34,310 bases of DNA from Candidatus Paraburkholderia calva. GTDB lineage: Bacteria; Pseudomonadota; Gammaproteobacteria; Burkholderiales; Burkholderiaceae. This document shows, piece after piece, positions 10,269 to 30,504 of the stretch. The notes beneath the pieces are model-generated. The model saw nothing but the letters and a program-made list of their open reading frames with translations, was not told the origin of the DNA and searched no databases. The position numbers and the translations under genes are program-made. Positions within the stretch are counted from its first letter, which is position 1. The number at the start of each line of letters is the position of its first letter. The stretch spans positions 1 through 34,310 of the forward strand of contig LFLF01000029.1 of NCBI GenBank assembly GCA_001184395.1, in the 5' to 3' direction.

Positions 10269-10861
10269 TCATCTGTATTGTTTCATGGCGAGCCAGAAGC
10301 GCGACCACGGCTCACGCGGGCCGTCGCACAAATAGAGCGATTTGGCGCCGACCAAACCATTGCCGACACCCACGCGTCCCGCCGCCCGGCACGCGACGAA
10401 CAGGCGCTGCACGGGCTCGTCACGCATGCCCACGACGATCAGCGGCTTCGGCAGCGGGTCGCTGTAACCGCGATATCAGTTCGTGTTCATTGGACAACGC
10501 GCGCGGCAAACCGTACTGCGCGCCTTAGAGATCGATCGCTTCGGCCTGCGCCGAATCGGCAGCGAGTATGCCTATGCCGCTGCGTTGGCCGGGCGCAAGC
10601 GTGTCGCGCAACGCAGCCACCGAGCGGGCGAGTTCGGGCCAGCCGAGTTCTTCGTTGAAGTTGCCGCCGTTGTGCTGGTCGGCCCAGCGCCACCACGACG
10701 AATACGGCGGCGCAACCGGCAACACTACCGCCGCGCCGAACACGAAACCGATCGCCAGCAACGCGACGACGGCAATGCGAACGATGCGCCACTGCGCCCA
10801 AGCACGCTCGCTCCACACCGCGCCCGACGCCAGCAACATCGGATAAGGTAGTAATCGCGCC
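10269..10861 (-). pseudogene. GT39-type membrane glycosyltransferase, C-terminal part (other half at 29611-30504)
   Basis: On the minus strand from 10861: GRDYYL, a small deletion, then YPMLLASGAVWSERAW, the membrane segment VVALLAIGFVFGAAVVLP, SSWWRWADQHNGGNFNEELG, and ILAADSAQAEAIDL. A TAG follows, and after more frame changes [20 protein letters not shown] with the stop at 10269. This is the C-terminal half of an integral-membrane dolichyl-phosphate-mannose/ArnT-like glycosyltransferase (GT39 superfamily, PF13231-type). These enzymes use polyprenyl-linked sugars at the inner membrane; the substrate here is unknown. Its start lies almost 20 kb away, facing the other way, separated by the inversion. 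The two halves join at KGR/DYYL. Confidence 0.8.
10856..10861. other. inversion breakpoint, left
   Basis: CGCGCC here joins the glycosyltransferase 3' part (to the left, minus strand) to the PBP1A 3' part (to the right, plus strand). The partner breakpoint is at 30501-30504. See findings. Confidence 0.85.
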
Positions 10862-11328
10862 GTATTTGCCGCTCGCGCGCGGCGCGGGGCTCGTCACGCC
10901 GTTGCAACTGAGCGGCGCGTATTCGGTGTTCGCGAACGACGCGTATCGCATCAATCCGTACCTGATCGCCGAAGTGGACGACGCGCGCGGCGCCGTGATC
11001 TCACGCGCCGATCCGCTCACCGCCGCCAAGAATGTGCCGCAGACGCTGGAATCGCGCAACGCGTACATCATCAACAGCCTGCTGCACACGGTCGCGACGC
11101 AAGGCACCGGTTCCGGCACCAACGCGCTCAAGCGCAACGACCTGCAAGGCAAGACGGGTATGACCAACGACGTGAAGGCCAGCTGGTTCGCTGGCTATCA
11201 GAAGCAGCTCGTCGCGGTCGCGTGGATGGGCTACGACCAGCCGAAGACGCTCGGCAGCCGCGAGTTCGACGCCCAGCTCGCATTGCCGATCTGGGTGCAG
11301 TACATGACTCAGGCGTTGCGCGGCATTC

Positions 11329-11348
11329 CGCAGCAGGACGCAGCAGGA
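11329..11348. repeat. 10-bp tandem duplication in mrcA 3' part
   Basis: CGCAGCAGGA occurs twice head to tail, between GIPQQ and EMDKPDGITTVD of the expected protein. It adds ten bases. A nearby one-base loss brings the frame back for a stretch. Confidence 0.85.
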
Positions 11349-11599
11349 GATGGACAAGCCCGACGGCATAACGACCGTCGACGCGAGATGTTCTATGCGG
11401 ATCGCACGCCGGGCACGGGCTTCGTCGCGAGTATCGGGCTGGACAACAAGAATCCGATGGCGGGCGATGCCACCATGATGGGCGGCGGCGAGCATGGCGG
11501 TGTCTGCGCCGCCGCCACAAGTCACCACGACGAGCGCCGGCAGGCCGGCAGATCTTGAACCTGTTCAATAAGCCCTGATCGCTTCAGGGCCTCGAATGC

Positions 11600-11629
11600 A
11601 AAAAAGCGCGCTTTCGGGCGCGCTTTTTT
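11600..11629. terminator. bidirectional rho-independent terminator
   Basis: A perfect 12-bp stem (AAAAAAGCGCGC / GCGCGCTTTTTT) with a six-base loop TTTCGG. It has T-runs on both strands and lies between the convergent ends of the mrcA 3' part and pcuC. Confidence 0.95.
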
Positions 11630-11657
11630 GTCGATCGCGAAAAGTCCGATGGTTCGC

Positions 11658-12098
11658 TTAATTGCCGACCGTCGCCGCAGATTTCACCGCGCACTGCACA
11701 TCGACCGTGGACTTGTCGCTGAACGTGAGTTGCAGCGGAATCGTCGAACCCACCTGCAGCGGCTTCGGCGGCTGTTCCATCATCAGGTGGTAGCTCTTGG
11801 GCTTGAATTCGAGCGTGCCGTGCGCGGGCACGTTGATCGACGACACCATTTCCATCGTCGCGGTGCTGCCCTTGTTCTCGGACTTGTGCATCATCGTCAT
11901 GCCGAACGCGGGCGAGCGAGCAGCGGTGAGCGTCACGGGCTGCGGGCCGTTGTTCGACAGCGTGAAGTAGCCGGACGACGGCAGTCTCGGTGGCATTGCG
12001 CGGACCCAGCAATCGTGCACTTCCAGGGTCACCGCATGCGAAACAGCCGGGAGCAGGGCGTCGGTCACGACGCCCAGAATGACTGCGGTTTTTTTCAT
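11658..12098 (-). CDS. periplasmic copper chaperone PCu(A)C
   Basis: A 146-residue secreted protein, started at ATG 12098 because a signal peptide follows directly ([11 protein letters not shown]...SHA, mature start near residue 24). It carries the PCu(A)C/DUF461 pattern: MTMMHKSE with a Met-rich copper site, then [15 protein letters not shown], the His and Met ligands of the H(M)X10MX21HXM class. Such proteins carry Cu(I) in the periplasm, for example to the CuA centre of cytochrome oxidase. The gene starts eight bases after the stop of the broken copC on the same strand, so the two once formed a small copper operon. It looks complete. Confidence 0.85.
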
Positions 12099-12105
12099 TG
12101 CGGCC

Positions 12106-12446
12106 TCACTTGACCGTGAAGTTGTAGTGACCTTGCGTGCGATGCCCGTCGGCGGCGAACACCTTCCTTCCATTATCGGGTAATGATGCGCGCATCATGT
12201 TCTTGTCGTCGAGATCGATGGTGGATTTGTTAGTCGTGACCTGCCGCTTTCGGTCGTGACGTACATCGCGCTGAAGGTTGGCTCCAGCGCTTCAGCGAAT
12301 TCGATGGTGACTTCGTGCGGCGCGCTGACCTTCGCGCCCGGGCCGGGTTGTTGCACCTTGGGATAGGCGTGCACGAACGCGAGCGGCGCGGCCGCCATGA
12401 GCGCAGCGGCAATCAGGCCGCGCCGTGCGAAAGAGGATGTCTTCAT
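12106..12446 (-). pseudogene. CopC/YobA-type copper resistance protein, broken
   Basis: From ATG 12446: MKTSSFARRGLIAAALMAAA (signal peptide), then HAYPKVQQPGPGAKVSAP and HEVTIEFAEALEPTFSAMYV, the start of the CopC beta-barrel with its His-first mature N-terminus. Near 12240 the frame changes (TIDLDDKNM continues in another frame). Sequence is missing around 12170, where VYTVRW is expected. The end is [18 protein letters not shown] at 12106. CopC binds copper in the periplasm. The indels and the internal loss make it a pseudogene, while its downstream neighbour PCu(A)C is intact. Confidence 0.8.
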
Positions 12447-12543
12447 GTCGTGTGTGGATTCGCTCGCGCGAAGTCGCGTCGAGCGCAGGGGTGCGGAATC
12501 GCGCGTCAAAGAAACTCTTCATGCGCGAAGCGGGCTTGCCGGA

Positions 12544-12944
12544 TCAGGCCGAGGTCGGCGGCACACGCGAGCGTGTGTGCGTGCGAGACGTGGCGCGCGG
12601 TGACGCTATGCGGGCGATGTCGATGAACGCATCGCACAATGGCATTGCGTGAGATGCGTCTTGCGCGACGAAGGGCAAGGCCGGTGTGTGCGCGGCGAGG
12701 TTGCAGTAGCCGCAGGCGTTCAGTTGCGCGATGGCGCCGTGCGATGCGTGCTCTTTATCTGCATGAAACGCCGCATCGTTCCGCACTGAACCGGATGCAC
12801 AAAGCGATGCGAACAGGCTCGTATCCGCGCGCGCATGAACGAGCCATTTGCCGAGGCAAGCGGCACGAACGAAAGCAGCAGGATCGCGCATAGTGCCGCG
12901 AACCCGCCGACTCTTCCAACGATGCCTCGACGCAAAGAATGCAT
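12544..12944 (-). pseudogene. DUF2946-type protein, frameshifted
   Basis: It starts at ATG 12944 with a signal or membrane segment (MHSLRRGIVGRVGG, AALCAILLLSFVPLASA). Near 12845 the frame changes to SLFASLCASGSVRNDAAFHA. HGAIAQLNACGYCNLAAHTP follows, the CxYC core of DUF2946, then VPPTSA and the stop at 12544. The DUF2946 family is uncharacterised and often lies next to copper genes such as copC, as here. One frameshift separates the export signal from the conserved core. Confidence 0.7.
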
Positions 12945-13072
12945 GCCGCGTTCGTTAAGGCGGCCGATTATGCCATGTAGCGATGCGTGTTCTGCTCGAT
13001 ACGACCTGCTATGGAGAGACCATACGACGCAGCACGAATCATGCGTTCGCATAGAAGAAATTGGACGAAGCA

Positions 13073-13101
13073 TTGCGCACGATTGAGCGATGACATATAA
13101 T
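13073..13101 (+). promoter_or_regulatory. sigma-70-type promoter upstream of tRNA pseudogene
   Basis: TTGCGC (13073-13078), a 17-bp spacer and a perfect TATAAT (13096-13101), about 34 bp before the decayed tRNA. The spacing and the exact -10 suggest that this is the original tRNA promoter. Confidence 0.65.
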
Positions 13102-13134
13102 AGGTTTTTTATTTTTTCTTCTTAAATGGGTGGA

Positions 13135-13209
13135 CGCTGGGCGGAGCAGTCTGGCAGCTCGTAGCCTCATAACCCGAAGATCGTAGGTTCAAATCCTACC
13201 CCGCAACCA
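13135..13209 (+). pseudogene. initiator tRNA-fMet (CAU), decayed
   Basis: The sequence still holds AGCAGTCTGGCAGCTCG (D arm), a CTCATAA anticodon loop, the T arm GTAGGTTCAAATCCTAC and an encoded ACCA end, all as in bacterial tRNA-fMet. Three regions are damaged. The acceptor stem 5' strand is CGCTGGG (CGCGGGG expected), and its 3' side has lost one C. Base 8 is C instead of the near-invariant U. The 5' strand of the anticodon stem is TAGC instead of TCGGG, which removes the three G:C pairs that mark initiator tRNAs. It is 75 instead of 77 bases. It should not fold or function; the cell must have another copy. Confidence 0.8.
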
Positions 13210-13463
13210 TTAAGCGCTTTTTAGCCTCCGTCACGCATACATCGAAGAGGCCCAGCACGCATTGAAGCGAGCCGGGTTTTTTCCTTTCTGCCACTGCTTT
13301 TCGAGTAGTCAACTCGCGCGCCAGAACGCGCAGCAGAGGCACTTCACGACGTCGCTTTTATCCGATTCATGACCGCGCAAGGCATTCCTCTTTCACATGC
13401 GCATGTCAGAATCGGTGAGCGATGACGCATCATGCATCGAGTCATTCAAGGAGGCACGCGCTC

Positions 13464-13689
13464 ATGGACATCGCTCACGATCTGCAAACTATCGCACATA
13501 AATACGGTCTCGACGCGACGCACTATGCCTCGAATGGCGGATCGTTTCCGTTGCGCGTCGCGTGCGGGTGTGATCGGCGCGGTGACCGTGTCGGGTCTGC
13601 GCCAGCGCGATGATCATCAGTTCGTCGTGGAAACGCTGTGCGCCGTGCTCGGCGCCGACTTCAGCGCGCTTACGCTGGGGCACGCCTGA
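13464..13689 (+). pseudogene. UPF0303 family (heme-degrading-domain-like) protein, internal deletion
   Basis: The start [11 protein letters not shown] (ATG 13464, with an AAGGAGG-like site upstream) is followed at once by [21 protein letters not shown] frame change then leads to [20 protein letters not shown] and [13 protein letters not shown]. In UPF0303 proteins of about 165 residues, the first and second blocks are separated by roughly 80-90 residues that are absent here. The gene therefore has a large in-gene deletion plus a frameshift near 13560. It is not functional. Confidence 0.75.
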
Positions 13690-13728
13690 GTCCAATCGAT
13701 AGGCCAAACAGGAAAGGGTTCAACGCTA

Positions 13729-14052
13729 ATGCGCTCTTCAGCTTATGTGCTTCTCGCCATCGCGATCGTCGCGGAAGTCATCGCGACCTCCGCATTGCGC
13801 GCCTCCGACGGCTTCCCGCGGCCATCGTCGTCGCGGGTTATGGGCTGTCGTTTTGTCTGCTGTCGTTGACGTTGTGCACCCTGCCGTGGGCATCGTGTAT
13901 GCGGTGTGGTCGGGCGCGGGCATCGTACTGATCACACTCGTCGCAACGCTGCTCTTCAAGCAGACGCCCGATCTCGCGGCGGTGATCGGCATGGGATTGA
14001 TCGTATCGGGGTCGTCGTGCTCAACGCGTTCTCGAAAATAAGCGCGCATTGA
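13729..14052 (+). pseudogene. small multidrug resistance (EmrE/QacE-type) transporter, frameshifted
   Basis: It begins MRSSAYVLLAIAIVAEVIAT at 13729, which includes the essential membrane glutamate (VAEVIATS) of SMR proteins. The frame changes near 13818 to RLPAAIVVAGYGLSF, again to VGIVYAVWSGAGIVL and TLLFKQTPDLAAVIGMGL, and lastly near 14010 to VVLNAFSKISAH with the stop at 14052. SMR proteins are four-helix, proton-driven exporters of cationic drugs in the inner membrane. All four helices are still recognisable, but at least three indels break the frame. Confidence 0.85.
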
Positions 14053-14072
14053 CGCGAGTCCGGGTCGAACGC

Positions 14073-14465
14073 TTATTTGCAGCGCACGATCATCGAGCGG
14101 TTCTTGACGTTGGCCGAGACCACGTTCGTAATGCCGCCACCGGTCGGCCCGCCTTCTTCGTTGTCTTTGGACACGATGTCGTAACCCGTCGCGCCGCATT
14201 TCTTGCCCGCGAGCACGTAGCAACTCGCCCAACTGGTGCGGGCATCGGCGCCGCTGCAATTGACCGCGTAACCGGTCTGGCCGTCTGGCAGGTTGATTAG
14301 CGATGCATCGTTCGACGACGCGCACGCGCCGAGACTCGCGATCGCCAGTGCGGCCGCGCCGTATCCAATGCCGCGCAGCCATGCGGCAGGGCGAGTCAGG
14401 GAAAAAGCGCGCGAGTGCTCGGCGCGCGCAGGAAACCGGCGCATGCGCTGAACGTCTTGCTTCAT
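14073..14465 (-). CDS. conserved hypothetical lipoprotein
   Basis: A 130-residue protein from ATG 14465. A long N-terminus precedes a hydrophobic stretch (GAAALAIASLGAC) with a lipobox, LGAC, near residue 48, so it is probably a lipoprotein. The mature part has four more cysteines (NCSGAD, ASCYVLAGKKCGATGYD, VRCK), suggesting disulfides in the periplasm. YDIVSKDNEEGG and SANVKNRSMIVRC are reminiscent of small Burkholderia lipoproteins of unknown function. The start may be further inside, because lipoprotein signals are usually shorter. The frame is intact among pseudogenes, so it may be under selection. Confidence 0.6.
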   Translation of the reverse strand: MKQDVQRMRRFPARAEHSRAFSLTRPAAWLRGIGYGAAALAIASLGACASSNDASLINLPDGQTGYAVNCSGADARTSWASCYVLAGKKCGATGYDIVSKDNEEGGPTGGGITNVVSANVKNRSMIVRCK

Positions 14466-14738
14466 CGTCAAATCGACCTCTGGAACGGATTACGTGCCGT
14501 GACGCCAACTGAAAGGACACCGCGACTTTTTAGAGATGGGCATTGTCCCACAGCCTGCTTACCGTGCCGCGTAGGCATTCGTGACAGCTGCTGCGCAGGC
14601 GCGCGCCTTGCGAACAGGAGCGTGAATCAGCGGACCATGAACGGGACGGCGCGCCCATTGAACTAATTTCCGGATGGCGCGCCTCATGGGTAGGGTACGA
14701 TGAAATACGAGCGACCGTTAGCAAAACAGCGCGCACAA

Positions 14739-14780
14739 GATACGGAGGTACACAAAATGGATACGGAGGTACACAAAATG
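14739..14780. repeat. 21-bp perfect tandem duplication of a ribosome binding site and start codon
   Basis: Copies at 14739-14759 and 14760-14780 are identical. Each contains ACGGAGGTACACAAAATG, that is a GGAGG Shine-Dalgarno, a 7-base spacer and an ATG. The two ATGs (14757 and 14778) are in the same frame. Confidence 0.95.
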
Positions 14781-15055
14781 GCGGAAAGAGTGTCGGGGCT
14801 GTCAGTGTCGGGGCTGTAACGCGGTTACTACATCAGCGCGTCGGCACGGCTCGTGCAATCGCAGAAGGGCACCGCCGAACCGATTTACGTCGGCTCGGTC
14901 AGTCTCGCGCCGGGCGGTCCGGACAATGTGCATCGCCTCGAAGCGTTTGTCAATCTGGGCCCGGACAGTGCTTCCGCACTGAGCGCGAAGCGCTTGGCTA
15001 CGTGGAGGAATCCGCACGCGAATATATCGACCGCTTGCTGCGGATCGCGGGCTGA
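14757..15055 (+). pseudogene. small conserved hypothetical protein, broken
   Basis: The likely original start is MAERVSGL (ATG 14778), with an added upstream start from the 21-bp duplication. A second, 15-bp duplication (14790-14819) repeats VSGL and is followed by a TAA at 14817. After it the same frame goes on RGYYISASARLVQSQKGTAE, YVGSVSLAPGGPDNVHRLEA. Near 14975 the frame changes to EALGYVEESAREYIDRLLRI and a stop at 15055. The protein of about 90 residues resembles small Burkholderia proteins of unknown function; I cannot name the family. Two duplications, a stop and an indel break it. Confidence 0.55.
14790..14819. repeat. 15-bp imperfect tandem duplication
   Basis: GTGTCGGGGCTGTCA is followed directly by GTGTCGGGGCTGTAA (14 of 15 identical). 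It lies only ten bases after the 21-bp duplication, within the first codons of the same small gene. Confidence 0.85.
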
Positions 15056-15580
15056 AGGCGATGCGTCCTCACCTTCGTTACGCGATGCTATAAGACGTCG
15101 CGCATTGTCTGGATCGACCTGTTTCCGAGCGGCGCGGACGTCGCGGAAATCGGGCTCGATGCAACGCCCGCGCTGTTCGTCAGCTAGCGAACGGGCGGGG
15201 TGGGGAATCATCCCGGCAATATTGCGTGAGGCGTGCATTACCGCTTCGACACGCAAGTGTTGCACGCTTATCCCGATATGGCGAAAGCGGCACACGAACG
15301 GGTGTGCGAACGCGTGCGCGAGACGAGCCGGCATCTGGATTTCAATTACGCTGTCCGCTCGCGAGTTTGCTGCTGACGATGGATGTCACCGAAGACGTCC
15401 TGGCCGCATAGCGCTTGGACGAGCGCATCGTTTGCGCACGCGCTGGACCGGAAGCGCGTGGCACGAGTACCATAAATCCCTCATCGAATCGTGTAAACAC
15501 GCCCGAATGGTTTTGTGCCGCGCCGCATCGAATCGAATTTGGTTCGGGAAAAGACTCCGCGCCCGTGCAAGGAGGTCATC
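15056..15580. other. decayed coding sequence, not identified
   Basis: This stretch has Burkholderia-like codon texture but no open frame of normal length. Short protein-like pieces on the plus strand, in changing frames, include TSRIVWIDLFPSGADVAEIG (near 15095), DTQVLHAYPDMAKAAHERV (near 15248) and SLLLTMDVTEDVLAA (near 15365). They could be one or two small genes broken by several indels and stops. I do not recognise a family. Confidence 0.4.
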
Positions 15581-15862
15581 ATGAACATCGACTTTCTTCC
15601 GGACGTGCCCGCGTATCGCGACGCCAATCTCACCGTGAATTTCCCGTGCTCGTCGATGGTCGGCGCGTGCCGTGCGCAATTTCGGTTGAAGCACTGGAGG
15701 ATCACTTCGGCGTCGAGACATACACCGCACGGGCTGGATCAGCGCATTCGACGCGGGCGTCCGCGTATCGAGGCCGTGGCGCGCGAACATCTGCGTGTGA
15801 CCAATGGCATGCCGGTGCTGCTCAAGAGCGGACATTTTCCGCCGGGCCGGGTGCTCGCTTGA
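15581..15862 (+). pseudogene. DUF1488 family protein, frameshifted
   Basis: ATG 15581 follows an AAGGAGG ribosome binding site. It reads MNIDFLPDVPAYRDANLTVN, then in another frame VLVDGRRVPCAISVEALEDH and FGVETYTA. A last change leads to RIEAVAREHLRVTNGMPVLL with KSGHFPPGRVLA and the stop at 15862. This is the layout of DUF1488, a small family of about 85-95 residues of unknown function. A lost base after LTVNFP (near 15645) and an indel near 15732 break it. Confidence 0.7.
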
Positions 15863-16027
15863 GCATGCGTTGCGGCATCACATGCCGCGTCTTACCCGCT
15901 TCGATGTAAGACCTTCCTCGCCACCAACGCGCGCTTGACGCGTTGCGCCATGCGACAGCCATTATTTTTTCCTTGCGCGTTAACATCCTTACGCATCCGG
16001 GCGACTCGGAGTACCATCGACTTACTC

Positions 16028-16057
16028 GGCCGATTGGGATGTGGCCGGTTGGGATGT
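16028..16057. repeat. 15-bp imperfect tandem duplication
   Basis: GGCCGATTGGGATGT followed by GGCCGGTTGGGATGT (14 of 15 identical), outside any recognisable gene. Confidence 0.9.
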
Positions 16058-16067
16058 GATTCGCACA

Positions 16068-16095
16068 GCGCGGTACTTGCTGCGCGGTACTTGCT
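16068..16095. repeat. 14-bp perfect tandem duplication
   Basis: GCGCGGTACTTGCT occurs twice head to tail, ten bases after the 15-bp duplication at 16028-16057. Confidence 0.9.
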
Positions 16096-16166
16096 CGAAG
16101 GCTTTCAGGCTTCCGCTCTATCGAGCATCCTAATATATAAAATATAAAAAATCGTGCGGGGTCGCC

Positions 16167-16358
16167 ATGTTTCATTCCTTTCTGCATTCACTCGTCGAGT
16201 CCAATGCGTTATGACTCATCTGGGCCGCGCTGGGCGTGCTTGTGCTTGCGTTGTGCGTCGTGTTTGCGTCGGTCGTGTATCGGAGTCGGACGACGCGCTC
16301 GCGCTCTATAGCGCGACGCGTCAACCGGATGACGACAGACAGCAAGTTGATCGTGTAA
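16167..16358 (+). pseudogene. small single-span membrane protein with in-frame stop
   Basis: ATG 16167 opens MFHSFLHSLVESNAL, then a TGA at 16209. The same frame continues LIWAALGVLVLALCVVFASV, a clear membrane span, then a basic tail (YRSRTTRSRSIARRVNR) and TAA at 16356. Without the TGA it would be a 63-residue membrane protein. I do not recognise the family. It may never have been a gene, but the well-placed hydrophobic segment followed by a positive tail argues that it was. Confidence 0.35.
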
Positions 16359-16596
16359 GTTCGGGGTCTTCGCGCGCCTGAAAACGCGCAAACGAATTCG
16401 CGTTTGACTTCAAATTCGTCGATGCCGACAATGCCTTGCAGGGTTTCACAATGGCGCGCGCAGGTGGGCCGGGGGGGTGCGAAAGGGAAGCAGAATAGGA
16501 CACACGCAAGCATCCGGCCGCCTGATTCGGCGAGTCGCAGGACGAGCATTCAAACAGACACGGGCGAAACCGCGAACTGACCCTCAACCAGACACG

Positions 16597-17688
16597 ATGA
16601 CCACCGAAGACATTCGTATCGACACCGCCAACGGCATCGGCTTCATTGCTTTCGACCGACCGAAGGCGCTCAATGAATTGACCCCAACGGGGCTACGTTC
16701 AATCAGCGAAGCGCTCCGCGCATGGTGGCACGATCAGGCGATCCGCGCCGTCATCGTGTACAGCCCGCATCTGCGCGCGTTCTGCGTGGGCGGCGATATC
16801 CGCTTTCTGTACAACTCGGCGAAAGCCGGCGACCGCAATGCGATCGACGCGTTCTTCACGGACGAGTACAAGCTCAACCACACCATTTTCACGTTCCCGA
16901 AGCCGTATATCGCGATGATGAACGGCGTGACCCATGGGCAGCGGCATGGGCATCTCGCAGGGCGCGCATCACACGGACGGCCTGCGGCTCGACACGCAAG
17001 TCAAACAAGATGGCGATGCCCGAGACGCGCATCGGCCTGTTTCCGGACATCGGCGTGAGCTGGTTCCTTGGCGCGCACGCCGGGAACGATGGCCGCGACC
17101 GGCGCGAGCATAAGCGCCGCCGACGCGCTCTACGCGCGCATGGCCGACGCGTATCTCGAGGACGGTGCGCTGCCGGGCCTGATCGAAGATTTGCGGCATC
17201 AGCGGTTTATGGACGGCGTGGACATCGTGCGCTTCATCGAGCGCGAGACGAAGAAGTTCAAGGTGTCGCCGACGCTCGATCGCTGCGAATTCGCGTTGGC
17301 GCGCACGCTCATCGACAAGCATTTCGCCATGGGCAACGGCGCGGCGATCCTGGTTTCGCTCGAGCGTGACACCAGCGAGTGGGCCGAGCGCACGGCGCGC
17401 GAACTGCGCGAGCGTTCGCCGCTCTCGTTCGATGTGTCACTCCAGCTCGTGGATCGCACGAAGTTCTCGACAATGGCCGAAACGCTACGGCGCGATCTCG
17501 ATCTCACGCGCACGACCTTCGGGCGTGGCGACGTGGTGAAGGGCATCCGCGCGCGCATCGTCGATAAAGACAATCAGCCGGCATGGAAGATCGCACGCTC
17601 GGAAGACGTCAGCGCGGCCGATGTCGAGCGTATGTTCGAAAGTGCGTGGACACCGGCTTCGCACCCGTTGCGGCTGCTGAAGGACTAA
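16597..17688 (+). pseudogene. 3-hydroxyisobutyryl-CoA hydrolase (enoyl-CoA hydratase/isomerase family), broken
   Basis: It starts MTTEDIRIDTANGIGFIAFD at 16597. FDRPKALNEL and AFCVGGDIRFLYN are typical of HIBCH, which hydrolyses 3-hydroxyisobutyryl-CoA in valine breakdown. An extra C near 16932 breaks the frame just before the oxyanion-hole motif. That motif now reads MGSGMGISQG (MGGGMG expected). Further changes occur near 16995 (to KMAMPETRIGLFPD) and near 17080, where about seven residues are missing before MAATGASISAADALYA. From there to 17688 the frame is open (HQRFMDGVDIVRFIERET, SFDVSLQLVDRTK). At least three indels make it non-functional. Confidence 0.85.
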
Positions 17689-17724
17689 GGAAGCAGGAAC
17701 GGAGCGCGCTGCGCTCCGTCGTCG

Positions 17725-17960
17725 TCATTCCGCGTCGCTGCCCGCCATGAAGGCGCGCATGAAAACGAGCGCGCCCCAGCCCTAGATAGCGTTGGCAATG
17801 AACTCCGGAACGCCCAGCGGAAGAAACGGGATGGTGGAGAAGCCTGCCGGATCGATGACGCCCGCCGCATGGAGTAGCGCGAGAGCGGATTCACGGAAGA
17901 ACAGTGCAGCGAAAAAACCAGATACGAACGGCAGAATGACTTTTGCATTGGCTGAACCGC
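17725..17960 (-). pseudogene. small membrane protein with in-frame TAG
   Basis: The minus strand reads AKVILPFVSGFFAALFFRES, then ALALLHAAGVIDPAGFSTIP and LPLGVPEFIANAI. A TAG follows, then GWGALVFMRAFMAGSDAE and TGA at 17725. The two hydrophobic segments and the small size fit a conserved inner-membrane protein of unknown function. The TAG probably replaces TGG (Trp), a G-to-A change. No clear start codon is left upstream in this frame, and the C-terminal part looks shortened. I cannot name the family. Confidence 0.5.
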
Positions 17961-18073
17961 TTGGTGTCGAGCGCGGTTTTCTCCGATGATCGAAACGAGC
18001 GCCATTATAGTGGCCGCGGCCGGGATGTCGGGCGGGATTTGGACGGTTTCGGATCGGCTCCGCGCCGATCGCG

Positions 18074-18313: not shown

Positions 18314-18405
18314 GATGTGTCTCCGTGTCTCGTGGAGCAAACTAGGGTGACCATGAGGCGGCAGCAAGATACGTGAATGCTACGGGAAACCCACGCGGCA
18401 AAAAG

Positions 18406-18408
18406 GAC
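18406..18408. other. rearrangement breakpoint 1 (MFS N-part / upstream of small secreted protein)
   Basis: GAC (GTC on the minus strand) joins the MFS N-terminal part to DNA upstream of the small secreted-protein gene. GTC is also present at the two matching breakpoints (19572-19574 and 25274-25276). Confidence 0.75.
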
Positions 18409-20434: not shown

Positions 20435-20443
20435 CTTCACACG

Positions 20444-20953: not shown

Positions 20954-20957
20954 GCAC

Positions 20958-21305: not shown

Positions 21306-21325
21306 ACAAGACAAGGAGCCTGCAC

Positions 21326-21806: not shown

Positions 21807-21825
21807 TCGCGGGACGCCGCGTGCA

Positions 21826-22586: not shown

Positions 22587-22738
22587 GAAGTTCTCCTTGT
22601 GAAGGTTGATCAGTGTGAAGGCATTTTGGGCAGGCTTTCGGGCGTTGCCGTGCGAAGTTTTCGACGCACTCGTTCGACGGGTTCGAACGAGTTCCGGAAA
22701 AGCAGCACGTTTTCAGCCTGTGCCACTGGAGCCTGGCG

Positions 22739-22937
22739 TCAGCGATCGTTGGCCATCGCCGCGAGCCTGCCGTTGCCTGCATCGCGGGCCGCAGCCGCCG
22801 TGGCGAAGTTTTCCTCCGAGACCATTGCGCGTCTCGCGCGCTTCGAAATCGACCAACGCCATCACCCAGACGAAACCGCCCGCCTGTTCCGTGGTCGTGA
22901 CGAATGCCTTCAGCTTGCCCTCATTCGACGATGTCAT
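22739..22937 (-). pseudogene. small conserved hypothetical, probable frameshift
   Basis: A strong AAGGAGG precedes ATG 22937. The frame reads MTSSNEGKLKAFVTTTEQAG, then GFVWVMALVDFEARETRNG. Near 22820 it should move to SEENFATAAAARDAGNGRLA and AMANDR with the stop at 22739. The current frame instead continues into low-complexity Gly/Arg codons. The helical Ala-rich end fits better with the start than the present continuation does, so I read one small indel. About 65 residues; no function known. Confidence 0.5.
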
Positions 22938-23031
22938 CTTGACCTCCTTGCTCGTGGATACGCACCGCCATCGGCGCAAAATAATCCGGTTGAGGAACAG
23001 GCGCGGCGCGCAGGGTCCGTAGCGTCGGAAA

Positions 23032-23418
23032 TCACGATTCGAAATCTAGCCCGACGACGAGTACGGTCGGCTCGCCTTGCAAACGCGTTTTCAGATCGAT
23101 GTCGCGCACGCCTTCCCAGGCCGTGAGGTTGGCGCCTATCGAATCGAGGTATCGCAGGAGACGCGCCTCCCCGCCGGGACGCAGCAAGCGTCCTATCTCG
23201 TCGTCCCAGGTGAGAAATACATTCAGGTCGTACGGATAGCGGCTGGCGCGCTCGGCCATACGCTGACGTTCGGCGCTAGCATGCAGACACGTTGGCAAAA
23301 GCAGATTTTCATAGGGCACGATTTCGACGCGCACGCCACGATCCAGCAGGCGCGCGACCTGTTCGACGATCGGCAGCATGAACTCCGCCTCGAAGCGGGC
23401 CGCCGTTTCGCGATTCAC
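23032..23418 (-). CDS. conserved hypothetical protein (possibly DUF5594)
   Basis: A frame of 128 residues from GTG 23418: NRETAARFEAEFMLPIVEQV, then ARLLDRGVRVEIVPYENLLL, YPYDLNVFLTWDDEIGRLLR, PGGEARLLRYLDSIGANLTA and GEPTVLVVGLDFES at the end. It looks like a folded soluble alpha/beta protein. It recalls a Burkholderia-specific family I associate with DUF5594, but I am not certain. In-frame sequence AYALIPDKTAV continues upstream to about 23449. The true start may have been there, at a codon now damaged (CTGTGACGCGCG). It overlaps or abuts the next remnant on the same strand. Confidence 0.5.
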   Translation of the reverse strand: MNRETAARFEAEFMLPIVEQVARLLDRGVRVEIVPYENLLLPTCLHASAERQRMAERASRYPYDLNVFLTWDDEIGRLLRPGGEARLLRYLDSIGANLTAWEGVRDIDLKTRLQGEPTVLVVGLDFES

Positions 23419-23457
23419 GGCAGTCTTATCCGGAATGAGCGCATACGCGCGTCACAG

Positions 23458-23762
23458 TCAGATGGCCGGCAGATCTTCCAGCGACTTCTCGATCTGCCCG
23501 TCCCGCGCGCGCCTCGATGCCGACGTGCCCGTTCGCATAAGGCAGCGCGCTGACCTTCGGCCCGAGAAAGGTTCGGCCGCCCAGCGTGAACAGCGTATGC
23601 ACCTCTTCGCCACGCTTGATGGCGTCCACGACTTGATGCACGTCCACGATGCTTGCTCGTGGGCGCGGTCTAGCCGTTGGTGGATTGATCGAAGCTGCCC
23701 CAGCGCACGCTAGTCACATGTTCGTTAACCCAGCGCACACCGTCGATCGCCAAAGTAGCCAT
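23458..23762 (-). pseudogene. small conserved hypothetical (DUF3892-like), in-frame TAG and frameshift
   Basis: From ATG 23762: MATLAIDGVRWVNEHVTSVR, then WGSFDQSTNG and a TAG at 23682 where Trp is likely. After a frame change near 23650 the sequence goes on VDVHQVVDAIKRGEEVHTLF, TLGGRTFLGPKVSALPYANG and HVGIEAR. A second shift near 23500 leads to DGQIEKSLEDLPAI and the stop at 23458. The order of elements recalls DUF3892-type proteins. Function unknown. It is divergent from dusA across about 210 bp. Confidence 0.55.
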
Positions 23763-23971
23763 GACTGCCTCCGTTGTCGTCGTACGGGGTGAGGAATCAA
23801 TGCTAGCACGCAGACGATGCGGTAACGCGGGCCACATCGCAACGTCATTTCGGCGCGAACGTAGCGGGCCGCCGCCTTTGTCACGCGAGGATGCGATTCG
23901 TGTCCCTACGGTAAAATTCCGGATTCGCCGCCGTTCGATGCGGCTTGCTTCTTATTCGACGCCGTTCGCCT

Positions 23972-24997
23972 ATGTCAGCCGTATCTTCATCCGATTCGCA
24001 AGTCTCGCAACTCTGCGCGCGCCGCGTGTCCGTCGCGCCGATGGTGGATTGGACCGATCGCCATTGCCGTTCGCTGCATCGGCTGGTATCGCGTCATACG
24101 TGGCTATACACGGAGATGGTGACGACCGGCGCGCTACTCTACGGCGATGTCGCGCGGCATCTGGCGTTCACGCCCGCCGAAGCGCCCGTAGCACTGCAAC
24201 TCGGCGGCAGCGAGCCCGCCGATCTCGCGAAAAGCGCGAAGCTAGGCGAGCAATGGGGCTACGACGAAATCAACCTGAACTGCGGTTGCCCGTCCAAGCG
24301 CGTGCAGCGGGGCGCGTTCGGCGCATGCCTGATGAAAGAGCCGACGCTCGTCGCCGACTGCGTGAAGGCGATACGCGACGCCGTGTCAGTTCCGGTGACG
24401 GTGAAACATCGCATCGGCGTGGATGCGATCGAGGAATATGAGTTCGTGCGCGATTTCGTCGGCACGGTCGCGGATGCCGGTTGCGAAATGTTCATCGTGC
24501 ACGCGCGCAATGCGATTCTGAAAGGCCTGAGCCCGAAAGAGAACCGCGAAATTCCGCCGCTCAAGTACTACTACGCGTATCGGTTGAAGCGCGACTTTCC
24601 GCATCTCGAGATTTCGATCAACGGCGGTATCAAGACGCTGGACGAAGTGGAAGAGCACCTGAAACATGTCGACGGCGTAATGCTCGGGCGCGAGGCGTAT
24701 CACAACCCCTTTGTGCTGGCCGATGTCGATGCGCGCTTCTACGGCACGGCGACGATTGCACCGATGCGCGAGGAAATCGAGGCGGGGCTGATCGAATACG
24801 CGCGCGCGGAACTGGCGCGCAGTACGTATCTCGGTGCCGTCACGCGTCATGCGCTCGGGTTGTATCGCGGTGTCGCGGGCGCGCGCGGCTGGCGGCGCGT
24901 GTTGTCGGACAGTCGCCGGCTGGCGACGGGCGATCTGTCGGTGTTCGATGAGGCGCGGAGCCATCTGCGCGACGCGCTCGAAGCCATCGAGTCGTGA
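23972..24997 (+). CDS. dusA: tRNA-dihydrouridine synthase DusA
   Basis: An FMN enzyme that reduces uridine to dihydrouridine in the D-loop of tRNAs (U20/U20a), using NADPH in the cytoplasm. Length is 341 residues from ATG 23972. I chose this start over one nine codons upstream because relatives begin close to the SVAPMVDWTDRHCR strand. Family motifs: VAPMVDWTD (FMN site), NLNCGCPSKRV with the catalytic Cys106, VTVKHRIGVD, FIVHARNAILKGLSPKENRE and ISINGGIKTLDEVEEHL (phosphate site), then the C-terminal helical RNA-binding domain. The long Cys-Gly-Cys loop and NAILKGLSPKENR point to DusA rather than DusB or DusC. No damage is visible; it is one of the well-kept genes here. Confidence 0.95.
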   Translation: MSAVSSSDSQVSQLCARRVSVAPMVDWTDRHCRSLHRLVSRHTWLYTEMVTTGALLYGDVARHLAFTPAEAPVALQLGGSEPADLAKSAKLGEQWGYDEINLNCGCPSKRVQRGAFGACLMKEPTLVADCVKAIRDAVSVPVTVKHRIGVDAIEEYEFVRDFVGTVADAGCEMFIVHARNAILKGLSPKENREIPPLKYYYAYRLKRDFPHLEISINGGIKTLDEVEEHLKHVDGVMLGREAYHNPFVLADVDARFYGTATIAPMREEIEAGLIEYARAELARSTYLGAVTRHALGLYRGVAGARGWRRVLSDSRRLATGDLSVFDEARSHLRDALEAIES

Positions 24998-25079
24998 CAC
25001 GGACGCACAGCCACGCCGTCACATGCCATCCGGCGAAAAACAATGCTCGAAAAGACTAGGCAAGCGCAATTCTAGTTCG

Positions 25080-25085
25080 TATAAT
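25080..25085 (+). promoter_or_regulatory. -10 element of tRNA-His promoter
   Basis: A perfect TATAAT about 60 bp before the tRNA. The expected -35 region (around 25057-25062) shows only a weak match. Confidence 0.5.
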
Positions 25086-25146
25086 TTGTGGTTTAGTCGG
25101 ACGAGCTTCTCGAAGCGAGTTTAAGCGGAAGCAAGTTGTTCCAGTG

Positions 25147-25222
25147 GTGGCTGTAGCTCAGTTGGTAGAGTCCAGGATTGTGATTCCTGTCGTCGTGGGT
25201 TCGAGTCCCATCAGCCACCCCA
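25147..25222 (+). tRNA. tRNA-His (GUG)
   Basis: A complete cloverleaf: acceptor stem GTGGCTG / CAGCCAC, D arm GCTCAGTTGGTAGAG, anticodon stem CAGGA / TCCTG with loop TTGTGAT (anticodon GTG), T arm GTGGGTTCGAGTCCCAT, discriminator C and encoded CCA. All stems pair. It is followed by a strong terminator. Unlike the initiator tRNA at 13135 it is intact, as expected for a gene usually present once. Confidence 0.97.
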
Positions 25223-25232
25223 GCAGAATTCG

Positions 25233-25264
25233 AACGGCACTGTGCAAAACACAGTGCCGTTTTT
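25233..25264 (+). terminator. rho-independent terminator of tRNA-His
   Basis: A 12-bp stem AACGGCACTGTG / CACAGTGCCGTT with loop CAAAA, followed by a T-run. About ten bases after it, the aldo/keto reductase 3' part begins at the breakpoint. Confidence 0.92.
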
Positions 25265-25273
25265 GCTTTTTTC

Positions 25274-26196
25274 GTCAATTTCATCGATGCCGCCGAGATG
25301 TATCCGGTGCCGCCGCGCCCGGAAACGCGAGACCGCACCGAGCAGTACATCGGCACCTGGCTCGCGAAGAATCCGGGCAAGCGCGCCGGGATCGTGCTCG
25401 CGACCAAGATCGCCGGTCCCGCGCGTCAGCCGCACAATCCGCGGCATATCCGCGGCGCGGAAAACCAGTTCGACCGCAAAAACATCTTCTCGGCGATCGA
25501 CACGAGCCTTCAGGCCTGCAATCCGATTACGTGGACTTGTACCAGCTGCACTGGCCCGACCGCAGCACGATGACCTTCGGCCGCGCGGCGTATCCGTATC
25601 TCGACGACGAATACACGGTGCTCATCGAAGAGACGCTGGCCACGCTCGGCGAACTCGTGAAGGCGGGCAAGATCCGTCATATCGGCGTGTCGAACGAAAC
25701 GCCGTGGGGCGTCGCGCAATTCCTGCGGGCGGCGGGAAAGGCCGGGCTGCCGAAGATCGTCAGCATTCAGAATCCGTACAGCCTCGTGAACCGCACCTTC
25801 GAAACGGGCATCTCCGAGTTCACGCACAAGGAAGGCGTCGGCCTGCTCTCGTATTTGCCGCTGGCGTTCGGCTGGCTCTCCGGCAAATACGAAGGCGGCG
25901 CGCGGCCCGTCGGCGCGCGCATCACCCTGTTCGAGCGGCTCGCGCGCTACAGCAAGCCGCAGTCGGTCGCCGCGATCACGCGCTATGTCGAACTCGCGAA
26001 GCGTCATGGCCTGAGTCCGGCGCAATTCGCGCTCGCGTTCGTCAACAGCCGGCCGTTTACCACCAACAACCTGATCGGCGCCACGTCGATGGCACAACTG
26101 AAGGAAAACATCGATAGCGTGAACATCGATCTGTCCAAGGAAATGCTCGCGGAAATCGACGCGCTGCACGAGCTTCAGCCGAATCCGGAGCCGTAA
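25274..26196 (+). pseudogene. aldo/keto reductase, C-terminal part (start at 19443-19574)
   Basis: From the breakpoint: VNFIDAAEMYPVPPRPETRD with the catalytic Asp and Tyr, GIVLATKIAGPARQP with the Lys, then a small indel near 25515. LYQLHWPDRSTMTFG follows with the His of the tetrad, then KAGKIRHIGVSNETPWGVAQ, FGWLSGKYEGGARPVG, and the end at 26196. It completes the 44-codon start at 19443, joining at LAQGV/NFIDAAEMY. It is a Tas-like NADPH-dependent reductase. The gene is doubly dead: cut by the rearrangement and frameshifted. Here it follows the tRNA-His terminator, so it has no promoter. Confidence 0.88.
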
Positions 26197-26576
26197 GCTC
26201 GCCGAAGGATTCGCCGCACGTCGACAGAAAATCTCTGCTTTGACAGGGGCTTGCTGCGCGCGGCGCGCATTCGCCGCGTTTGTGTCAGCATGGATGGTCG
26301 CGTTGACGGCGGCGCTCGAACGTCTGAATGAGCGTTTGAACTATCCGGGCACAGTCGTGCCCAAGTGAAGCATCCGGGCGGCACGTGCCCGCATCTCGCC
26401 GTCACGCCGTCGTGGTTCTCGTTCTGGAAGTAGACGCGCACATCGTCTCTGCATCACCCGCAATGTCAGCGCCGAACGCCGAGCCGGCACGAGGCACTGC
26501 ATTTGCTTGATAGTCCTGGTTGCCCGCTGCGGCGCCTTTCGTGCCCAGCGCGCTTTTCGCAAAGGAGTCGTCGCTC
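26197..26576. other. region without a recognisable gene
   Basis: About 380 bp between the aldo/keto reductase remnant and transketolase. One plus-strand stretch (VALTAALERLNERLNYPGT near 26300, then HPGGTCPHLAVTPSWFSF in another frame) looks like the remains of a small coding sequence. I cannot identify it. The promoter of the transketolase gene should lie near the right end. Confidence 0.4.
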
Positions 26577-28546
26577 ATGTCTGAAGCAACACAAGCAAAA
26601 GACTTCGATCGCCTGACGATCGACACCATCCACACGCTCTCGATGGATGCCGTGCAGAAAGCCAACTCCGGCCACTCCGGGACACCGATGGCGCTCGCGT
26701 CGGTCGCGTTCCATCTGTTCCAGAACCATCTCCGCTACGATCCCGACGCGCCGCTCTGGCCGAACCGCGACCGTTTCGTGCTCTCCCGGGTATGCGTCGA
26801 TGCTGCTGTATTCGACGCTGTTCCTGACTGGCGTGAAGGAAGTGGACACGCACGGCAAGCCCGCCGTCTCGCTCGACGACGTCAAGAGCTTCCGCCAGCT
26901 CGACAGCAAGACGCCGGGCCATCCCGAATACCCGCCGGGCCATCCCGAATACTGCATGACGACCGGTGTCGAAACGACGACCGGACTGCTCGGGCAAGGC
27001 CTCAGCAACAGCGTCGGCATGGCGATGGCCGCGCGCTGGAAGGAAGCGCATTTCAACAAGGGCGGCGACACGATCTTCGATTACCGTGTCTACGCGCTGT
27101 GCGGCGATGGCTGCATGATGGAAGGGGTGTCGCACGAAGCTGCTTCGCTGGCGGGACATCTGAAGCTGTCGAATCTCATCTGGATCTACGACAGCAACCG
27201 CGTGACCATCGACGGCCATACGGCGACAAACCGACCTTGATCGTGGTGAAGAGTATCATCGGCTGGGGCGCGCCGAACAAACAGGACACGGCTAGCGCGC
27301 ATGGCGAAGCGCTCGGCGAAGACGAAGTGAAGGCCGCGAAGAAGTTCTACGGCTGGCTCTACGGCTGGCCGGAAGACAAGCAGTTCTACGTGCCCGATGG
27401 CGTAATGCAGCACTTCGCCGACGGCTTCGGCGCGTGCGGCAAGAAGCTGTACGCGGGATGGGTCGAGCGCTTCAAGGCGTACGAAAAATCGAATCCAGCG
27501 CGCGCGAAAGAAGCGTGGGAAATGCTCGAAACGAAGCTTCCCGACGGTTGGGAAAGTGCGATCCCGACTTTCGAGGCAGACGAGAAGGGCCTCGCCACGC
27601 GCGATTCGTCGAGCAAGGTGGTCAATGCGCTCGCGCACCGCATTCCCTGGCTGATCGGCGGCGCGGCGGATTTGTCGCCGTCCACGAAGACGAACCTCAA
27701 GTTCGACGGCGCGGGCAGCTTCGGAGCCGACGACTACGCGGGACGCAATCTGCACTTCGGCATTCGCGAGCACGGCATGGGCTCGGTGGCGAACGGTCTC
27801 GCGCTGTCGGACATGATGTGCGCGTATGCCTCGACATTACTGATTTTCAGCGACTACATGAAGCCGCCGATCCGTCTATCGGCGATTATGGAAGTGCCGG
27901 TCATCTACGTGTTCACGCACGACTCGATCGGCGTGGGCGAGGATGGGCCGACGCACCAGCCGATCGAACAGCTCGCCGCGTTGCGCGCGGTGTCAGGCCT
28001 TATGCTGCTGCGTTCCGCCGACGCCAACGAAGTCGGCGAAGCGTGTCGCGTCGCGCTGTCGCACAACAAGGAGCCGTCGTGCATCGTGCTGACATGTCAG
28101 CCGCTGCCGACCTTCGATCGCAAGAAGTATGCGTCGGCAGAAGGCACGCGGCGCGTACGTGCTCGCCGATGCCGACGACGGCAAGAAACCCGAAGTCATC
28201 CTGATGGCGACCGGCAGCGAAGTGCCGCTGTGCATCGAGGTCTACGAAAAGCTCAAGAGCGAAGGCATCGCGGCGCGTGTGGTGTCGATGCCGTCCTGGG
28301 ATATCTTCGAAAAGCAGGACGACACGTACAAGGAATCCGTGCTGCCCGGCGACGTGCATGCGCGCGTTTCCGTCGAGCAGGCCGCGACGCTCGGCTGGGA
28401 CCGTTACACGGGTCGCCTGGGTTCGCAGATCGTCATGCATACGTTCGGCGCGTCCGCGCCGCTCAAGGCGCTCAAAACCAAGTTCGGCTTCACGCCGGAA
28501 AAGGTCTATGAGGCCGCGAAGAAACAGATCGAACGCGTGAAAAACA
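26577..28546 (+). pseudogene. tkt: transketolase, multiply broken
   Basis: It starts [20 protein letters not shown] at 26577 and has [19 protein letters not shown]. The frame breaks near 26788 (expected LSNGHASML). It resumes [20 protein letters not shown], with a 21-bp in-frame duplication ([12 protein letters not shown], 26914-26952) and [20 protein letters not shown] (thiamine-diphosphate motif). At 27225 roughly 130 bases are missing between TIDGHT and [15 protein letters not shown]. Another frame change lies near 28150 (AYVLADADDGKKPEV). The stop codon near 28546 is lost, and the frame reads on into gnd. Transketolase links the pentose-phosphate pathway and glycolysis. Unless a second copy exists this is a serious loss. 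Confidence 0.92.
26914..26952. repeat. 18-bp direct repeat, period 21, in transketolase remnant
   Basis: CCGGGCCATCCCGAATAC at 26914-26931 and 26935-26952, separated by three bases. It adds seven codons and keeps the frame. Confidence 0.95.
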
Positions 28547-28567
28547 ATGGCAAGGAGTGGTTCCATC

Positions 28568-29548
28568 ATGCAGATCGGCATCGTAGGACTGGGGCGCATG
28601 GGCGGCAATATTGGACGCCGTCTCATGCGGGGCGGATACCAATGCGTGGTCTACGACCATTCGCCGGACGCGACGGATGCGCTCGTCAAGGAAGGCGCGA
28701 ACGGCGCGAAGGACTTGGGCGAACTGGTCGCGCAACTACAGGCGCCGCGCGTCGTGTGGCTCATGCTGCCGGCGGGCAAGATCACCGAGGACACGCTCGG
28801 CGACCTGAGCAAGCTACTGGGCCGCGACGACGTCGTGATCGACGGCGGCAACAGTTTCTACAAGGACGATATCCGCCGCGCCACGCAATTCCGCGAGCAG
28901 GGCATTCATTACGTCGATGTCGGCACCTCGGGTGGCGTGTGGGGCCTGACGCACGGCTACTGCATGATGATCGGCGGCGAAGAAGACGTGGTGCGCCGCA
29001 TCGATCCGATCCTCGCGACGCTCGCGCCGGGACGCGGCGACATTCCCGAAACGCCGGGGCGCGAAGGGCGCGATGCGCGCGTCGAGAACGGCTATATGCA
29101 CTGCGGACCGGTCGGCTCGGGGCACTTCGTCAAGATGGTCCATAACGGTATCGAGTACGGGCTGATGCAGGCGTATGCGGAAGGCTTCCACATTCTCAAG
29201 CACAAGGACTCGAAGGACCTCGCGGAGAACGAGCGTTACGATCTCGATCTCGCCGATATCGCCGAAGTATGGCGGCGCGGCAGCGTGGTGTCGTCGTGGC
29301 TGCTGGATCTGACGGCGGGCGCGCTCGCGGGCGATGGCGCGCTTGACAAGTACTCGGCCGAAGTCGCTGATAGCGGCGAAGGACGCTGGACCATCGAGGC
29401 GGCCATCGAGGAAGCGGTGCCCGCGCAGGTGTTGTCGGCGGCGCTCTACACGCGGTTCCGCTCGCGCGATGCCGAGTCGTTCCCCGAGCGCATGCTGTCG
29501 GCGATGCGCTTCGGCTTCGGCGGTCACAAGGAGTATCCGGTGAAGTAA
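28568..29548 (+). CDS. gnd: 6-phosphogluconate dehydrogenase, decarboxylating (short GndA/YqeC-type)
   Basis: A 326-residue enzyme that oxidises 6-phosphogluconate to ribulose 5-phosphate with release of CO2. It starts at ATG 28568, after AAGGAG at about 28551, at the point where the coenzyme-binding fold begins ([20 protein letters not shown], GxGxxG). Further motifs: [48 protein letters not shown] and [20 protein letters not shown], which holds the catalytic Lys and Asn. The short length places it in the roughly 300-330-residue class, often NAD-preferring. No damage is seen. The broken transketolase just upstream reads into it, and a terminator follows. Confidence 0.95.
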
Positions 29549-29574
29549 GACAGTGCGTGGTATGCGTTGGAGAT

Positions 29575-29604
29575 CGGCGATGGTGCTCGGACCATCGCCG
29601 TTTT
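29575..29604 (+). terminator. rho-independent terminator after gnd
   Basis: A 10-bp stem CGGCGATGGT / ACCATCGCCG with loop GCTCGG, followed by TTTT. It lies 27 bp after the gnd stop. Confidence 0.85.
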
Positions 29605-29610
29605 CGTTTG

Positions 29611-30504
29611 ATGGAGGCACACGTGCGAGAGACGACGCATGAACGCACGCGGGATCTGATCACGCTGATCGCGTGGGCCGTTGCGCTCGTGCTGCTGCAC
29701 ATGCTGACCAACGGTCGCTACGGTTTTCATCGCGATGAGCTTTCGTCGCTCGCCGATGGATGTTCGCTCGCGTGGGGTTACGTCGGCGGGCCGCCGCTCA
29801 CGCCGTTTCTCGCGCGTGCGGCTTTCACGCTGTTCGGGCCGTCGCCTGTCGGCTTGCGCGCGTTCGGCGCGCTCGCCATGGGCATCGCGCTCGTGCTGAC
29901 CGGTCTGATGGCACGCGAAATGGGCGGCTCGCGCCACGTGCAAGTGGTGGCGGCGCTGTGCGCTGCGATCGGCGGCGTGGCGTTGAGCGCCGGCACGATG
30001 CTCGAGTACGTCAGCCTCGATTACCTGTGGTGGGTGACGGCCGCGTATTGCGTCGTGCGCGTGCTCGCATCCGGTGATGCGCGTTGGTGTCTCGGCATCG
30101 GCGCCGCGCTTGGCATCGGCACGATGACCAAGTATGACATTGCGTTTTTTGCGGCGGGCATCGGCGCGGGTTTCGTGTTCACGCCGGCGCGGCGGCATAT
30201 GCGCAGTCCGTGGTCGTGGGCTGGCGTGGCACTGGCGCTCGCCATCTTTCTGCCGAATCTCATCTGGCTGTTCCTGCACGGCTTCGTCACGCTCGCTGGA
30301 GACCATCCACGCGCGCGACGGCGCCATCGGCCGCACTGAAGGTTTCGTGAGCGGCCAGTTCTGGATCGCCACGAGTCCGTTCACGGTGCCGGTGTGGATC
30401 GGTGGCTTGTGGTTTCTGTTCGGCACCAGCGCGAGCAAGCGTTTTCGCGCGCTCGGCTGGATGTAAGGTGTGCCGCTCGTATCGTTCGTCATCGCGAAAG
30501 GGCG
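29611..30504 (+). pseudogene. GT39-type membrane glycosyltransferase, N-terminal part (other half at 10269-10861)
   Basis: From ATG 29611: MEAHVRETTHERTRDLITLI, then several membrane helices (AWAVALVLLHMLTNGRYGFH, ALAMGIALVLTGLMAREMGG). GFHRDELSSLADG holds the Asp-Glu pair typical of this superfamily's first periplasmic loop. YVSLDYLWWVTAAYCVVRVL and GIGTMTKYDIAFFAAG follow. A small deletion near 30293 shifts the frame (ETIHARDGAIGRTEGFVSGQ continues). TAA at 30464 replaces an expected Tyr after ALGWM. The same frame then gives VPLVSFVIAKGR up to 30504, where it joins reversed mrcA sequence. Joined with the minus-strand piece at 10861 it reads KGR/DYYL. Polyprenyl-sugar transferase; substrate unknown; dead. 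Confidence 0.83.
30501..30504. other. inversion breakpoint, right
   Basis: GGCG here joins the glycosyltransferase 5' part (left, plus strand) to the PBP1A 5' part (right, minus strand). The partner is 10856-10861. Confidence 0.85.

Follow-up and report, generated by a model that had tools for sequence, protein, structure and literature searches.

Closed chains of balanced breaks, of the type called chromoplexy, occur in human genomes. The closest described bacterial cases, each taken from an excerpt of the report cited, are spontaneous inversions of Salmonella LT2 that join at short inverted homologies and need no insertion sequence (IS) (PMC3411829), inversions and inverted transpositions of Escherichia coli and Pseudomonas aeruginosa that can be written as block operations including re-use of a breakpoint (PMC5372343), and rearrangements driven by transposable elements in 121 species, with inversions in transposase-rich genomes (PMC12863080). 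We examined contig LFLF01000029.1 of Candidatus Paraburkholderia calva (contig C202 of genome G000; the entire contig of 34,310 bases is referred to here as the window). In the window, a reciprocal inversion of about 19.64 kb, with GGCG at both ends, cuts a glycosyltransferase gene and one of two genes for penicillin-binding proteins of the 1A type (PBP1A; mrcA), and inside it three further sites have exchanged ends cyclically with almost no loss.

The locus shares features with each of these systems and differs from all of them. The confirmed Salmonella inversions, in the excerpt, have at least 12 bases of homology; here the joins share 3–4 bases, the arrangement is fixed in the lineage, and one rearrangement is nested in another. 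The long inversions in the E. coli and P. aeruginosa excerpt are flanked by inverted repeats, which explain the breakpoint re-use; none were seen here. Unlike the rearrangements driven by transposable elements, no element was found at any junction. As in chromoplexy, three sites were rejoined cyclically with almost no loss, but on a bacterial chromosome and at kilobase scale, and the status of the exchange as a single event is a proposal. A literature search, in which coverage of subscription journals was limited, returned nothing on point for rearrangement in leaf-nodule genomes or for bacterial chromothripsis or chromoplexy. Candidatus Burkholderia verschuerenii UZHbot4 is a leaf-nodule symbiont of Psychotria, and the shrinking genome studied here is related to such symbionts.

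A reciprocal inversion through two genes

The G000 draft comprises 4.2 Mb in 301 contigs, with a completeness of 99% and a contamination of 0.05%. Four relatives (G014, G015, G001 and G034) were aligned to the window by blastn; among these G015 has the highest similarity to it. The sister genome G061 (3.5 Mb) is closer than G015 but fragmented, with an identity to the window of 85–94% in the main pieces across the locus.

Junction 1 (10858–10861) joins the 3' part of the glycosyltransferase gene (minus strand) to that of the PBP1A-type gene (plus strand). At junction 2 (30501–30504), the 5' part of the glycosyltransferase gene (plus) meets the 5' part of the PBP1A-type gene (minus). A preliminary description had read these reciprocal meetings, at 10861 and 30501, from the window itself, and the comparison confirms them, since relatives carry each gene uncut. 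The intact orthologs in G014 match Pfam PMT_2 (glycosyltransferase) and Transgly, PCB_OB and Transpeptidase (PBP).

The alignments divide the window into six blocks, a to f (Table 1). Their order in the window is a b c d e f. In G014 and G015 it is a, -e, -c, d, -b, f; in both genomes a second contig carries the beginning of b and the whole of f. In G001 the ancestral order lies on one 3.0-Mb contig (C1), except for a flip at the d/b boundary. The outer inversion is therefore real: the segment b c d e is reversed as a unit relative to the relatives, and the reversed synteny between 10.86 and 30.50 kb that had been anticipated is seen directly in G014, G015, G001 and others. Block a is collinear with the relatives up to about 10244. 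Window positions 30501 and 10858 are adjacent, with a 4-base overlap, in all four blastn-aligned relatives. The inversion is balanced, in that both junctions are present and reciprocal and gene content is kept, with junction 2 one base short.

The inversion appears to be derived in this lineage, as judged from 58 genomes of the genus (57 others) searched for junction 1 and 61 genomes (60 others) searched for junction 2. No match extends more than 7 bases across junction 1 in the 57 others, or more than about 5 bases across junction 2 in the 60 others, and no relative was found with the split foreseen as a counterexample in the preliminary description. The exact 28-mer at junction 1 had no match among genome contigs, in a search that may not have covered this genome. 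The G061 contigs break off within the PBP1A gene and soon after the start of the glycosyltransferase gene. The PBP1A protein aligned as one piece across the cut residue in 51 of the 57 other genomes and as collinear pieces spanning it in two more (G074 and G075); four (G003, G035, G061 and G065) were not assessable.

In G001 the PBP1A gene lies on C1 about 22 kb from the gnd/NodJ boundary, so that both ancestral sites are on one replicon. The G001 glycosyltransferase gene is absent from that boundary and lies on another contig (C2); in G072 its 3' part is likewise on another contig. An origin of the two loci from different replicons was considered on this ground and rejected, because the gene is whole between the NodJ-like gene and gnd in G014 and its start is beside gnd in G061. 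We also scored 80 loci around gnd from a named collection (10 kb flank, set threshold; names mostly Caballeronia). The NodJ gene was above threshold in 37 of the 80, convergent just beyond gnd in all 37, and the glycosyltransferase gene in none of the 80; with one whole copy in G014 and a start in G061, it is therefore rare at this site. The PBP gene was likewise found at none of the 80 loci, a weak negative, as a 10-kb flank would miss it in the old order.

A nested three-site exchange

The preliminary description recognized a single flip of about 19.6 kb. The outer inversion stands, but nested inside it is a rearrangement among three sites, by which a further two genes are cut. Within the inverted segment, blocks c and d are swapped, and d is reversed, relative to the relatives. 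The inner junctions, at 18406, 19572 and 25274, cut a major facilitator superfamily (MFS) transporter gene and an aldo/keto reductase gene, which form a divergent pair in 34 of the 37 NodJ-bearing gnd loci; the third site is intergenic, just past a hairpin downstream of tRNA-His. G061 retains the old c/d, c/e and d/b adjacencies (a separate flip lies farther along its block d) and has GTC at the MFS, reductase and intergenic sites alike. At this GTC the ends are joined cyclically: MFS-left to intergenic-right, intergenic-left to reductase-right and reductase-left to MFS-right. No gain or loss of bases was seen at junctions a/b, b/c and c/d. No match crosses d/e in the 57 other genomes, and among the matches listed for b/c and c/d none crosses by more than a few bases.

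The hairpin folds better than shuffled sequence (z -4.7 for 56 bases and -3.0 for 101 bases), whereas at the other four junctions folding is no better than in shuffles (z 1.6, -0.6, -0.0 and -0.4).

Table 1. Blocks, junctions and genes of the rearranged locus (window coordinates)
Feature	Position	Strand	Remarks
Block a, outside left	246–10857 (1–10857 in block scheme)		ABC/NodIJ-like genes, then glycosyltransferase 3' part
PMT_2-type glycosyltransferase, 3' part	10275–10861	minus	further frame change and stops
Junction 1 (a/b)	10858–10861		CGCC/GGCG common to glycosyltransferase and PBP1A genes
PBP1A-type gene (mrcA), 3' part	10858–11558	plus	residues about 685–910 of relatives' protein
Block b	10858–18405		blastn of relatives
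Inverted segment (blocks b c d e)	10862–30500		about 19.64 kb
Junction b/c (inner)	18406–18408		GAC/GTC
Block c	18406–19574		blastn of relatives
MFS transporter gene, 5' part	18409–19320	minus	relatives' residues 10–304, one frame change
Aldo/keto reductase gene, 5' part	19443–19574	plus	first 43–44 residues
Junction c/d (inner)	19572–19574		GTC
Block d	19572–25276		blastn of relatives
MFS transporter gene, 3' part	19572–20114	plus	
dus-type tRNA-dihydrouridine synthase gene	24011–24997	plus	open
tRNA-His (GTG)	25147–25222	plus	
Hairpin, 12-bp stem, then T-run (terminator-like)	25233–25261		directly before junction d/e
Block e	25273–30504		blastn of relatives
Junction d/e (inner)	25274–25276		GTC
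Aldo/keto reductase gene, remainder	25274–26196	plus	residues 44–350, one frame change
Transketolase-like gene (frame changes, one stop) and gnd-type gene (open)	26503–29548	plus	collinear with relatives
PMT_2-type glycosyltransferase, 5' part	29665–30505	plus	further frame change and one stop
PBP1A-type gene (mrcA), 5' part	30496–32514	minus	further frame changes and stops
Junction 2 (e/f)	30501–30504		GGCG; one base shorter than predicted from relatives
Block f	30501–34121		blastn of relatives

The dus gene (in the blastn-aligned genomes accompanied by tRNA-His and a small gene next to it; window 18069–18328 with 24011–25270) is found in both orientations: of the 15 named loci with dus in reach, 8 have it on the plus strand and 7 on the minus strand. 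This stretch appears to be a recurrent small inversion among the relatives. In G011 about 51 kb lie between the tRNA side and block b. Outside the inversion, window 9000–10259 carries NodI-like and NodJ-like ATP-binding cassette (ABC) transporter genes, of which the NodJ-like one changes frame near 9720; their DNA is 67.7% identical to nodI and the adjoining permease on Rhizobium symbiotic plasmids.

Probable end joining and competing histories

Both rearrangements probably arose by balanced end joining at matches of only a few bases, on a chromosome that is losing genes. The joins are balanced and nearly lossless, they share 3–4 bases, and no repeat was seen. Neither homologous recombination at repeats nor transposition fits; end joining is the natural remaining reading. 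Double-strand breaks would have been sealed by Ku/LigD-type or alternative end joining, with no long template.

The outer sites share GGCG (4 bases) when the PBP site of the relatives is taken as the ancestor. The preliminary description had given GGCGCG at the break, because the ancestral site was read off the junction itself, and had counted one junction as two bases short, where the relatives predict the loss of one base at junction 2. Random pairs of sites drawn from the window share at least 3 bases in 6.9–7.0% of draws, at least 4 in 2.4–2.5% and 6 or more in 0.28%; a count of six thus made the homology look stronger than it is. At least 3 bases are shared in 0.23% of random triplets. 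These percentages are chance rates and no proof. The short-homology mechanism first put forward is plausible, but with four bases in place of six, which are weak evidence by themselves.

Several points weigh against end joining at shared bases. The 4-base and 3-base homologies are individually weak. The GGCG of the glycosyltransferase site is taken from the window's own flanks, and G014 and G001 differ there. The GTC claim comes from G061, the closest relative; at the intergenic site GTC is not present in G005, G014, G015 or G023, and G001 has CGTC nearby. Relative to the other genomes two joins are imperfect, with junction d/e slightly different from G061 and e/f one base short. The confirmed spontaneous inversions of Salmonella, in the excerpt cited, have at least 12 bases (PMC3411829). 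Lastly, the Ku gene (PF02735) of G000 (C278:6137–6710) is broken by a frame change and stops; either Ku did its work before it decayed, or a different pathway was responsible. In this genome RecA is open.

Ku was matched in 55 of the 58 genomes of the genus. It is in pieces or partial in G034, G074 and G075, and it was not found in G003 (60% complete), G018 and G035. Loss of end joining may be a recurrent event in small genomes.

Solved by hand, the order of the blocks can be reached in two ways: by three inversions with exact re-use of one breakpoint, or by a two-break inversion plus a three-break exchange. We lean modestly toward the latter, because there is no repeat to guide breakpoint re-use. 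The inner exchange would then be a single three-break event and not two inversions re-using one breakpoint, and the hairpin may have helped to cause one of the breaks. A more far-reaching version, a concerted closed-chain rearrangement, is advanced tentatively, as a possibility we would sooner doubt than accept: three breaks made at once and closed in a cycle, each at the same three bases, the outer breaks possibly belonging to the same episode, nearly lossless and with no mobile element, and fixed in a host-restricted lineage in which Ku is now broken. The simultaneity is read from one genome and may be only apparent.

The most durable competitor is a series of three ordinary inversions (about 1.2, 6.9 and 19.6 kb), one of which re-used the breakpoint of another to the base. 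It assumes the same end-joining chemistry with a different event count, so its likelihood is not exclusive of that of the favoured reading. The hand-solved permutation takes three inversions with one re-used breakpoint, and for E. coli and P. aeruginosa such re-use has been reported at inversions flanked by inverted repeats (excerpt of PMC5372343). Here, the locus showed no repeat longer than a few bases to direct re-use to the base, and a 3-base match recurs everywhere; we regard this series as doubtful, though a real contender.

A single shattering event, with five breaks and all five junctions made at once by the same chemistry, is unlikely. It would account for the clustering of five junctions within 20 kb. 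We surveyed collinearity in 26 other contigs of this genome (637 kb, several in part) against 1.6 Mb of G001 C1. Nine of the 26 (C2, C3, C6, C11, C16, C46 and C112, with C1 and C90 in part) carried a synteny block; these blocks total about 154 kb and showed no flip. Four isolated C1 hits at 69–76% identity were judged paralogs and dropped. The window thus looks unusual within the genome, but it was picked for its rearrangement, which biases the clustering, rearrangements borne by IS would sit at contig ends, and the other 17 contigs, covered at less than 15%, are uninformative. In addition, GGCG at the outer sites and GTC at the inner sites suggest two events.

An inversion mediated by IS copies that were later lost is very improbable. 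IS5-family pieces lie at both ends of the window (1–222 and, from the opposite end of the element, 34130–34310) and match an element of Paraburkholderia sp. FT54; each recurs near the ends of 8 of the 26 other sampled contigs, so that the assembly breaks of the draft follow this element. The part of PMC12863080 cited here names transposable elements as the chief cause of translocations and inversions in bacteria and discusses later loss of the element. At the inversion ends themselves no long inverted repeat or IS was seen, IS5-family sequence being confined to the contig ends. From their coordinates the two IS5 copies read in the same direction and therefore could not flip the interval between them. 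Ancestral sequence reaches to within a few bases on both sides of the five junctions, where no IS, remnant or target duplication was seen, although no separate transposase search was run. From 248 to 34121, short gaps aside, the window aligns throughout to at least one relative, and an IS would have no space there. The absence of IS from both outer junctions was noted in the preliminary description and is upheld. IS excision was rejected, as no remnants are visible at the junctions.

Misassembly or an amplification chimera is just as remote. Amplification chimeras likewise use short homology, and the junctions are known from a draft assembly of 301 contigs alone. Every junction, however, has its reciprocal partner in the same contig, as independent chimeras would not, and we know of no assembler error that joins at 3–4 bases; reciprocity between the junctions at such short matches speaks strongly against an assembly error. 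The nine informative contigs of the survey are collinear. The least credible explanation, a site-specific invertase acting at the junctions, would suit the reciprocal, nearly lossless joins, but was rejected because no sites are visible: by eye, with no motif search run, there is no common site beyond 3–5 bases, and there are two different cores.

Decay of the cut genes and implications

All four cut genes carry at least one further frame change each, as do the transketolase-like gene and NodJ. Stops occur additionally in the 5' part of the PBP gene and in both glycosyltransferase parts, in line with the additional lesions described earlier for both genes. Either the cutting or the decay may have come first. 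In G061 (C667:8700–10122), part of the transketolase/gnd stretch is absent, and the glycosyltransferase gene breaks off soon after its start, near the contig end; the same gene is therefore being lost there by another route.

Two PBP1A-type genes are present in the genus, and in small genomes one or other of them has decayed. At least two matches to the protein were found in 56 of the 58 genomes, and the second gene of G000 (C123:27835–30183; 808 aa) is open, so that in this genome the window copy is broken and the C123 copy open. In G015 and G018 the window-type copy is open and the other is in two pieces. In G066 and G075 it is the window-type copy that is in two pieces (in G075 across two contigs) and the other that is open. 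Both genes have long open frames in G034 and G076, and G035 has no match at E<=1e-60. The cut genes would have been dispensable, and an open paralog may be the reason why the break in the PBP1A gene was tolerated.

In young symbionts restricted to a host, the loss of genes is usually put down to IS elements, small indels and deletions. Here four genes were cut by balanced joins without an IS, at base resolution and with the ancestral sites kept in relatives. The reciprocity of the junctions makes the hypothesis testable. The locus offers a clear setting in which to ask whether such genomes may be reshaped by error-prone end joining, and not by IS recombination, and whether multi-break balanced events may occur in bacteria.

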